From: a virus
Length of the DNA: 20,178 nt
IMG/VR virus record: IMGVR_UViG_3300025000_000482
Location: 1 to 20,178 of that record
Strand: one strand, 5' to 3'
Position numbers and translations under genes: made by a program. The notes under the pieces are model-generated. The model did no database searches. It saw only the letters and a program-made list of their open reading frames with translations, and was not told the origin of the DNA. This document shows, piece after piece, positions 3,121 to 20,178 of the stretch (its first letter is position 1; each line of letters begins with the position of its first letter).

Positions 3121-3549
3121 TTATACCCATCGTTCTTTGAATGCTCCTTTGTCAACATATTCCTTGTCAACGTGCCGTTTGCAATAAGTGTGAATATCAC
3201 TAAGTTTGCAATCTGTTTCGTCCTTTACCGCATTGTTTCTGTCAGCCTTAAGCTTCTCATTTTCTGCTTCCATCTTTTCAAGAAACTTTTCATCCATGGC
3301 ATTGTTAAAGGCGGTTATTGTCCTGTTGTCAAGCTCCTTATATGGAAGATTAAATTCAAGTGTATTCCTCATGCCCCTGCGGTGTATCTCATACTTGTCT
3401 GTCGCTGGGTTATACATGACAAACAGCGCTGGGTCGATTGCTTGTAACTTTTGCGGTATATCAAGCGTGTGACTGTCAACAAGGATAAGGTTTCGTTTCA
3501 TCCTGCCGGCATTCTTCTGATAAATAATTTCATCCTGCAGTGTGTTCAT
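3121..3549 (-). CDS. Unknown protein between capsid and adaptor genes
   Basis: A 142-aa charged protein starting at ATG 3549 with GGAGG 4 bases upstream. The frame is open farther to 3693, but that part overlaps the capsid gene and the terminator and has no ribosome binding site. Residues around 90-115 form a likely coiled coil (EKMEAENEKLKADRN). The N-terminal half is mixed alpha/beta. The terminator between it and the capsid gene implies lower expression than the capsid. It could be a head-completion or minor head protein; no family is recognised. Confidence 0.6.
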   Translation of the reverse strand: MNTLQDEIIYQKNAGRMKRNLILVDSHTLDIPQKLQAIDPALFVMYNPATDKYEIHRRGMRNTLEFNLPYKELDNRTITAFNNAMDEKFLEKMEAENEKLKADRNNAVKDETDCKLSDIHTYCKRHVDKEYVDKGAFKERWV

Positions 3550-17875: not shown

Positions 17876-18033
17876 TTGTCAGCAAGCGAAACACGAACCG
17901 CCGACCGAACATTGACAACTTAACAGCCAATTCCCAATAGCCTGCATCTGGCAGGTCATACCTCGAAGTGCATAGCACAGTATAGAGGGAGCAATTAAAG
18001 GATTGGCTGGTCTGCACATAGCAAATTTGAAAG
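17876..18033 (+). ncRNA. Structured 5' leader RNA (three-way junction)
   Basis: P1: CAGCCAATTC (17924-17933) with GGATTGGCTG (18000-18009), 10 bp with one G-U. P2: CCTGC/GCAGG (17941-17945/17951-17955) with loop ATCTG. P3: CCTC/GAGG (17961-17964/17985-17988) and GTGC/GCAC (17968-17971/17975-17978). Between the P3 halves lie GAA and AGTATA, matching the GAA/AGUA bulged-G (sarcin-ricin) internal loop. TTGTCA (17876) and TGACAA (17913) may add an outer helix. GGCT of P1 could alternatively pair with AGCC just before the ATG at 18047. No known riboswitch class is recognised. Confidence 0.55.
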
Positions 18034-18046
18034 GATGGTGCTAGCC

Positions 18047-18246: not shown

Positions 18247-18351
18247 ATGAAATATCGCATTAAATGGATAGGCAAACGAGCCCACGAGCGCATATTTGAC
18301 TCGCTGGCAAGTATTGCCGATATGGATTGGTTTAACTCTAATCACGAATAG
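18247..18351 (+). CDS. 34-aa basic protein
   Basis: The frame reads MKYRIKWIGKRAHERIFDSL and continues to an acidic, aromatic end (DMDWFNSNHE). AAAGGATGGGATG precedes the ATG. It resembles, in its first residues, the 44-aa protein at 19212 (MKLRIKLI), so the two may be related. Function unknown. Confidence 0.5.
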   Translation: MKYRIKWIGKRAHERIFDSLASIADMDWFNSNHE

Positions 18352-18356
18352 TCGAA

Positions 18357-18372
18357 ACCGGGTTTTCCCGGT
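18357..18372 (+). promoter_or_regulatory. GC-rich hairpin 5 bases after a stop codon
   Basis: ACCGGG, TTTT, CCCGGT: a perfect 6-bp stem with a tetraloop and no U-tract after it. One of a series of such hairpins following the plus-strand genes. Confidence 0.55.
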
Positions 18373-18373
18373 C

Positions 18374-18411
18374 TGCAGGAGCTGACCTACCTGCATTGAT
18401 GAGACAGGTCA
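18374..18411 (+). ncRNA. H-type RNA pseudoknot upstream of the radC-like gene
   Basis: Stem 1 is TGCAGG (18374-18379) with CCTGCA (18390-18395). Stem 2 is TGACCT (18383-18388) with AGGTCA (18406-18411). The order is a-b-a'-b', both stems are perfect 6 bp, and the loops are 3, 1 and 10 bases, which is ideal H-type geometry. AAGCAG/CTGCTT (18420-18425/18451-18456) and CATGC/GCATG (18473-18477/18490-18494) form further stems before the gene. It lies in a leader of about 170 bases without a gene. Confidence 0.55.
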
Positions 18412-18525
18412 CATAGAGAAAGCAGCCCGCCACCTACCAAAGCAAACGGACTGCTTAATACACAGCCGGAGCCATGCAAGAACAGTATAGCATGAGCCCG
18501 AGCAATAGAAAAGGGGCAAATGTAT

Positions 18526-18999
18526 ATGAGCAAAGCAGCAGCAGCAAAGACGGTAAGCAGTATTAACATCTACAAACTTAAGATGGTAAAAGAGGAAAGC
18601 GTGCAATACGGCACAAAAATGATTAAGTCACCCATGGAAATAAGCACAATAGCATGTGATTTGATGGAAATGCACGAGATGGCGGAAGAAAACTTTATCA
18701 TCATTTGTTTGAACACGAAGAATTACATCGCGGGAATACATACCATAAGCGTAGGCAGCTTGAACGCTTCTATCGTCCATCCTCGGGAGGTTTTTAAGGC
18801 GGCAATGTTAAACAATGCAAGCTCAATTATCCTCCTGCACAATCACCCGAGTGGCGATTCTTCCCCTAGTCAAGAAGATATTACCACCACACAGCGACTT
18901 ATTGATGGCGGGAATGTGTTGGGCATTAAGGTTCTGGATCATGTTGTTATCGGCAGCAAATTTAGATATACCAGCTTTAAAGAACAAGGCTTGATGTAA
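18526..18999 (+). CDS. RadC-like JAB/MPN domain protein
   Basis: A 157-aa protein with the JAMM metal site of RadC: H105 and H107 in LLHNHPSGDSSPSQED, S115 and D118, plus an upstream acidic E54/E55 in EENFIII. The helix-hairpin-helix part of full-length RadC is absent, so this is the short, mobile-element form. Residues 60-120 (GIHTISVGSLNASIVHPREVF) are typical. Such proteins are common on phages, plasmids and ICEs; the reaction is not settled, with suggestions in repair, recombination or counter-defence. ATG 18526 has GGGG at 9 bases; the ATG at 18520 is too close to it. Confidence 0.8.
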   Translation: MSKAAAAKTVSSINIYKLKMVKEESVQYGTKMIKSPMEISTIACDLMEMHEMAEENFIIICLNTKNYIAGIHTISVGSLNASIVHPREVFKAAMLNNASSIILLHNHPSGDSSPSQEDITTTQRLIDGGNVLGIKVLDHVVIGSKFRYTSFKEQGLM

Positions 19000-19008
19000 A
19001 TACATATA

Positions 19009-19025
19009 AGCCGAGCCTGGCGGCT
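19009..19025 (+). promoter_or_regulatory. Hairpin after the radC-like gene
   Basis: AGCCG (19009-19013) and CGGCT (19021-19025) with a 7-base loop, 9 bases after the stop codon and without a U-tract. Confidence 0.4.
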
Positions 19026-19050
19026 ATACCGGGCAGAGAGGCAGGACGCA

Positions 19051-19346: not shown

Positions 19347-19356
19347 CGCAGATGGG

Positions 19357-19395
19357 CCGGGGCTTCCCCGGTTAATGCCCTCCCGGAAACCGGGA
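19357..19395 (+). promoter_or_regulatory. Tandem GC-rich hairpins between plus-strand genes
   Basis: CCGGGG, CTT, CCCCGG (19357-19371) and TCCCGG, AAA, CCGGGA (19381-19395) are two adjacent perfect 6-bp stems with 3-base loops. No U-tract follows. They start 10 bases after a stop codon. Confidence 0.6.
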
Positions 19396-19432
19396 ACCGT
19401 CCAAAGGCGGTAGGCAATGAAGGAGTGATATT

Positions 19433-20106: not shown

Positions 20107-20155
20107 CCAGCTTGAAAGGGGCTGGGGTGGTAAAATTCCACCGGCGGGAAACCGC
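20107..20155 (+). ncRNA. Three consecutive hairpins in the leader of the next gene
   Basis: CCAGC/GCTGG (20107-20111/20121-20125), directly abutting GGTGG/CCACC (20126-20130/20138-20142), then GCGG-GAAA-CCGC (20144-20155) with a GNRA tetraloop. Abutting helices can stack coaxially. The element is probably cut by the window edge. Confidence 0.5.
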
Positions 20156-20178
20156 TTAACGCTTATAGACTATGAAAG

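Follow-up and report, generated by a model that had tools for sequence, protein, structure and literature searches.

The cytosine at position 3 of the hammerhead core pairs with G8. In type II hammerheads (RF02276), a pseudoknot formed between loop I and the 3' tail has already been described (Perreault et al. 2011, PMC3088659). This pseudoknot is critical for fast cleavage and, as in-line probing showed, it also folds when the remainder of the ribozyme is absent (PMC3088659). The same study reported hammerheads flanking prophage genes, for which an mRNA-type processing role was proposed, and it accepted rare core variants as hammerheads; natural U3-A8 pairs are also known from it, as is HHmeta, a saltern variant which is slow, active and cleaves at high Mg2+, while the 5' end of the HHphage transcript was mapped near the HHphage cleavage site (PMC3088659). 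Furthermore, two variants whose cores have insertions close to position 3 have been listed from halophilic organisms, one of them having U3 together with G8 (PMC7151607). Comprehensive pairwise mutagenesis of one hammerhead has shown that changes at the C3-equivalent position are all low in activity except for a G:C swap (PMC9901934).

The window analysed here is a virus record of 20,178 bases in which terminase and capsid-type genes occupy the - strand and short accessory genes, separated by long structured gaps, occupy the + strand. A preliminary description had pointed out two perfect, interleaved 6-bp stems with loops of 3, 1 and 10 nucleotides in the leader of a radC-like gene, and direct reading of the sequence confirms that they are present exactly as first described (18374-18411, + strand). 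We found that these 38 nt make up the 3' part of a larger type II hammerhead element, where S1 corresponds to stem I, S2 to the tertiary contact between loop I and the 3' tail, and the 10-nt pseudoknot loop to the catalytic core plus one strand of stem II (Table 1). The GC-rich hairpin which had been noted before the pseudoknot does stand 5' of it, but it is not a separate structure, as it forms stem III of the same element; further stems are located 3' of the pseudoknot. The last base of the TAG stop codon of the upstream ORF (18349-18351) is also the first base of stem II, the G of GUC.

Table 1. Coordinates of the putative type II hammerhead, its parts and the neighbouring genes in the window
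Feature	Position	Strand	Basis
Small ORF, 34 aa, stop codon abutting the ribozyme	18247-18351	+	Homologous ORF before the hammerhead in L037
Probable type II hammerhead, core variant (C3 to U), in the leader between the small ORF and radC	18350-18411	+	RF02276 match and sequence
Stem II, 3' strand GUC, pairing with GAC 18403-18405	18351-18353	+	Sequence
Core G12 A13 A14 (18354-18356) and A15.1 (18357), GAAA	18354-18357	+	Aligned to Hammerhead_II consensus CGAAAC
Stem III hairpin CCGGG-uuuu-CCCGG, closed by A15.1-U16.1	18358-18371	+	Rfam alignment, sequence
U16.1 (18372) and C17 (18373); predicted cleavage between 18373 and 18374	18372-18373	+	Alignment to the consensus GUC triplet
Stem I TGCAGG/CCTGCA with 10-nt loop I	18374-18395	+	Covariation, sequence
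S1 (TGCAGG/CCTGCA)	18374-18379/18390-18395	+	Sequence read
S2 (TGACCT/AGGTCA)	18383-18388/18406-18411	+	Sequence read
Pseudoknot loops agc (3), a (1), ttgatgagac (10)		+	Sequence read
Pseudoknot strand within loop I, TGACCT	18383-18388	+	Covariation with the tail
Core UUGAUGA: U at position 3, then U4 G5 A6 U7 G8 A9	18396-18402	+	Comparison of descriptor matches
Stem II, 5' strand GAC	18403-18405	+	Sequence
Pseudoknot strand AGGTCA in the 3' tail after stem II	18406-18411	+	Covariation; contact known from PMC3088659
RadC-like JAB domain protein, HNHPSGD motif, downstream gene	18520-18999	+	Pfam PF04002, E 1.9e-41

When the leader (18330-18525, 196 nt) was searched against Rfam at E up to 10, Hammerhead_II was the sole credible family. 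The match covers 18350-18413 and runs through the model from end to end (1-66/66) with 31.4 bits and an E-value of 6.1e-5 for the 196 nt searched, a score which is below the Rfam gathering threshold of 37. The hammerhead was thus invisible at the gathering threshold, as well as in a 2.4-kb scan at E<=5, and surfaced in the 196-nt search. The three-helix layout is that of the class, in which stem II is open whereas stems I and III are closed, and the consensus core (C3 U4 G5 A6 N7 G8 A9, G12 A13 A14, A15.1-U16.1 and H17) is matched everywhere except at C3, which is U. The window has the same permutation, GAAA, GUC site and UGANGA as the described type II hammerheads, with which it also shares the phage intergenic location next to genes, a short stem II and the loop-tail pseudoknot of most members, here 6 bp long (PMC3088659). 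The length of stem II, just 3 bp, is a point that we counted against the hammerhead reading. Hammerheads with rare departures from the consensus core have been accepted as such in earlier work (PMC3088659), and the element is therefore best called a core variant. From sequence comparison, we put the probability that 18350-18411 is a hammerhead-fold RNA of type II with a variant core at roughly 0.94, a figure which refers to structural identity and not to activity.

On the + strand of the window, no perfect 6/6 H-type pseudoknot with loops as short as these was found other than the one at 18374-18411. The preliminary description had considered such an arrangement rare by chance, an argument which turned out to be weak: dinucleotide shuffles of the 20-kb window gave 0.155 comparable 6/6 pseudoknots per strand, with at least one in 10.5% of the shuffles, making the bare pseudoknot unexceptional. 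Folding with ViennaRNA, which leaves pseudoknots out, gave an uninformative z of -1.32. Because the bare pseudoknot is not very improbable, the case for the element had to rest on comparison, which provided independent evidence that proved decisive.

A scan of viral contigs with a hammerhead descriptor found at least 133 matches of this type, the window included. Among the matches listed, 92 distinct loop/tail pairs have loops of at least 5 nt, and in 52 of these the loop and the tail are joined by a helix of 5 or more Watson-Crick base pairs, as opposed to a mean of 5.6 and a maximum of 12 when the tails were swapped; 39 different helices of this kind were observed among the matches listed. 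The exact 6/3/6/1/6/10/6 geometry of the window (38 nt) is found in at least 22 hammerheads. The 22 aligned were chosen on stem I and the core and not on S2, and their alignment is gapless. In this alignment, 92.8% of the cells are paired and nine of the 12 pairs have double changes, while the covariation score is 0.667 versus 0.162 for shuffled and at most 0.10 for slid alignments. Stem I is paired in 100% of the cells with double changes in five of six pairs, and S2 in 85.6% of the cells with double changes in four of six. The interleaved a-b-a'-b' pattern for which the preliminary description had proposed a covariation check is therefore seen to covary in related elements, and the refuting case of either stem being lost without compensation was not borne out among the 22 aligned members of the same-geometry class. 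Short loops, or none of this pseudoknot, are found in further hammerheads sharing the fold, among them the syntenic copies in L025, L037 and L167.

The unusual feature of the element is the identity of the residue at position 3. Among the matches listed, cytosine occupies this position in 132 of the 133 descriptor-matched hammerheads and T was observed solely in the window; with stricter stems, the counts among the matches listed are 154 C and one T. The window keeps G8 opposite U3, which would give a U.G pair, and it differs in this from RF02276, as it does in scoring below the gathering threshold. The U3-A8 covariant hammerheads also have U at position 3, but they compensate with A8 and so keep a Watson-Crick pair (PMC3088659). 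HHmeta and HHphage, which come from salterns and haloviruses, resemble the window in being phage or virus elements that precede a gene and are altered in the core around position 3 (PMC3088659, PMC7151607); however, variants of that type carry 2-nt insertions (2a, 2b) and are of hypersaline origin, whereas the window has a plain substitution with no insertion. A scan of viral contigs specific for T3 gave three loci, and the stems are formed in one of them alone, L162, where the hammerhead is intergenic and has its own TGACT/AGTCA pseudoknot. The U3.G8 variant with well-formed stems was thus found solely here and in phage contig L162. A scan for U3 across 84,980 genomes gave 25 matches, none of which forms the stems, and a search for a contig having the same ribozyme with either base at position 3 found none.

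Since U replaces C3 while G8 stays, cleavage is expected to be slow, condition-dependent or lost, and the element may accordingly be slow or even inactive through U3. Cleavage by such a core-variant type II hammerhead is plausible. We would place biologically useful cleavage, of about 0.1 per min or more, somewhat short of an even chance. In about one case out of three, on our estimate, the element might instead be a decayed hammerhead which keeps the fold after cleavage was abolished by the change from C3 to U, either as a relic or for its structure only, e.g. as a 5' or internal mRNA stabiliser or as a hairpin near the stop codon. Decay of this kind would fit the near invariance of C3 among the matches listed, the low activity of C3 changes on mutagenesis (PMC9901934) and the extreme rarity of the T3 variant in IMG/VR and in the 84,980 genomes. 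However, apart from U3 the core is intact, as are stems I and III and the 6-bp pseudoknot, and the decay would therefore have to be very recent. The second pseudoknotted U3.G8 hammerhead, in an intergenic region of L162, also argues against decay, as do the two insertion variants from halophilic organisms, one of them U3/G8 (PMC7151607), the cleavage of HHmeta and the position of the HHphage 5' end near its site (PMC3088659). The L162 instance hints at tolerance of the variant or at selection for it. A more specific proposal is that of a functional, uncompensated U3.G8 hammerhead, slow or cation-dependent, which would set the timing or level of small-ORF/radC processing while the other gaps of the operon are served by different ribozyme classes; we consider this unlikely. 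In the syntenic copies L164 +4206 (in L025) and L165 +4873 (in L037), we noticed an extra U between A9 and stem II (CUGAAGA-U-GACU and CUGACGA-U-GGCC, respectively), and so this hammerhead locus can accommodate oddities in the core.

The preliminary description had also offered an exonuclease block or a protein-binding site as functions of the pseudoknot. After cleavage, the downstream RNA of a type II element would indeed start with the pseudoknot, and the pseudoknot is able to form without the rest of the ribozyme (in-line probing, PMC3088659). Nevertheless, a long pseudoknot is missing from many relatives that have the hammerhead core, and the closest syntenic copies (L025, L037, L167) are among them; the conserved thing is therefore the core and not the block. 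We consider blocking or protein binding improbable as the primary function, and an exonuclease block would be retained only as a side consequence of cleavage. A stand-alone ligand sensor resembling SAM-II or preQ1-I, to which two interleaved 6-bp stems with short loops in a leader before a gene had drawn attention, is very improbable: no riboswitch family was found at E up to 10 on 18330-18525, the supposed 10-nt loop and the flanking hairpin are hammerhead core and stem III, and the combination is seen again in many phages whose downstream sequences are unrelated. Chance pairing, despite the frequency of bare 6/6 pseudoknots in shuffled strands, can practically be dismissed, as the full hammerhead descriptor (position 3 free) occurs once in the window versus twice in 1000 shuffled windows, only one of those having a pseudoknot, and as the Rfam match and the covariation both speak against it.

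The hammerhead is found in a syntenic position in three related phage contigs, namely L164 (L025) +4206, L165 (L037) +4873 and L167 +2731. In L037, a homologue of the small upstream ORF is followed by sequence which aligns, as a hammerhead, with 18374-18411 and the hairpin preceding it, and the L167 copy also matches RF02276 (28.5 bits). Pistol ribozymes are part of the same array in both L025 and L037, two contigs reached by pattern scanning, and L025 also has a twister-P5. The window together with L164, L165 and L167 resembles the multi-ribozyme phage arrays in which twister-P5 (RF02684), pistol (RF02679) and RAGATH-36 (RF03104) are arranged around short accessory genes; these are different RNA classes and provide context rather than homologues of the hammerhead element. 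The element belongs to a known kind of RNA and is unusual at a single catalytic position, and the phage array around it mixes ribozyme classes. DNA similarity searches of the leader found no similarity to annotated phages. RadC homologues were found at four viral loci, none with a hammerhead, and a search for leaders shared by RadC homologues in the genome collection found none.

Several other structured elements were observed in these arrays. A permissive Rfam scan of the window gave a twister-P5-like RNA between two later accessory genes (19347-19411; 34.6 bits against a gathering threshold of 37.6), and twister-P5 scores above threshold in the relatives L025 (48.5 bits), L167 (44.8) and L003 (61). 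The first part of a RAGATH-36-like RNA (20123-20178, 27 bits) is cut by the window end, and L025, L037 and L167 each have homologous sequence that ends in AACGCUUAUAGACU. A conserved leader of the whole operon is located at 17906-18045 and also at L164 3552-3700, L165 4066-4220 and L167 1969-2100. It contains the hairpin CCUC-GAA-GUGC-AUA-GCAC-AGUAUA-GAGG, which reads CGGC-GAA-GCGC-AUA-GCGC-AGAAUA-GCCG in L167; its GAA/AGUA internal loop resembles the sarcin-ricin motif and its 3' end resembles the end of the pistol ribozymes of the array.

Between the hammerhead and radC, a structured element at 18418-18515 has a P1 of AGCAG/CTGCT followed by TAATAC, ACAGTATA and GAGCAATAG, and has no Rfam family. 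The sole relative found is at L003 2913-3000, before the radC of that locus, the one RadC locus of the four with such an element, where P1 is CCCCC/GGGGG. This ACAGTATA-containing element was dropped as an explanation of the pseudoknot, being a separate element downstream of it. Another compact H-type pseudoknot, GCCG A GCCUGG CGGC UAUA CCGGGC at 19010-19035, also occurs at L164 5911 and at L167 3568 and 3808. Pseudoknots of this type are located directly upstream of ribosome-binding sites, have no matching Rfam family and show compensatory variation of both stems in the few copies. In addition, L003 contains a repeated GC-rich structured element (GCTAGGGACAGTCCCGGGAAGGCCGGGACCGGGGAG...CTCCCCGCTCCGCTCAA) before two genes at about 2340-2400 and 3470-3530, with no Rfam match at E up to 1.

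The homology of the fold, its covariation, the synteny with other hammerheads and the position in a ribozyme array can be read directly from the sequences, and the likely role of the type II hammerhead would be in processing the phage operon transcript between the small ORF and radC. Transcription of the accessory operon would give a polycistronic RNA in which stem I, stem III and the open 3-bp stem II surround the core, and S2 would tie loop I to the tail after stem II, thereby keeping stem I alongside stem II in the manner of known type II hammerheads. An active ribozyme would cut its own transcript between C18373 and U18374 and so separate the radC message from an upstream message whose 3' end lies close to stem III. 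The downstream radC RNA would then begin with the pseudoknot and a 5'-OH, and the 5'-terminal pseudoknot could be protective for this message.

An apparently mysterious leader pseudoknot thus becomes a testable ribozyme with a predicted cut site. Natural tests of the C3-G8 pair in the hammerhead core are rare, and the window adds one. Furthermore, phage operons in which successive gene gaps hold distinct classes of self-cleaving RNA (pistol, hammerhead and twister) together with RAGATH-36 are a useful setting in which to study the role of phage ribozymes.
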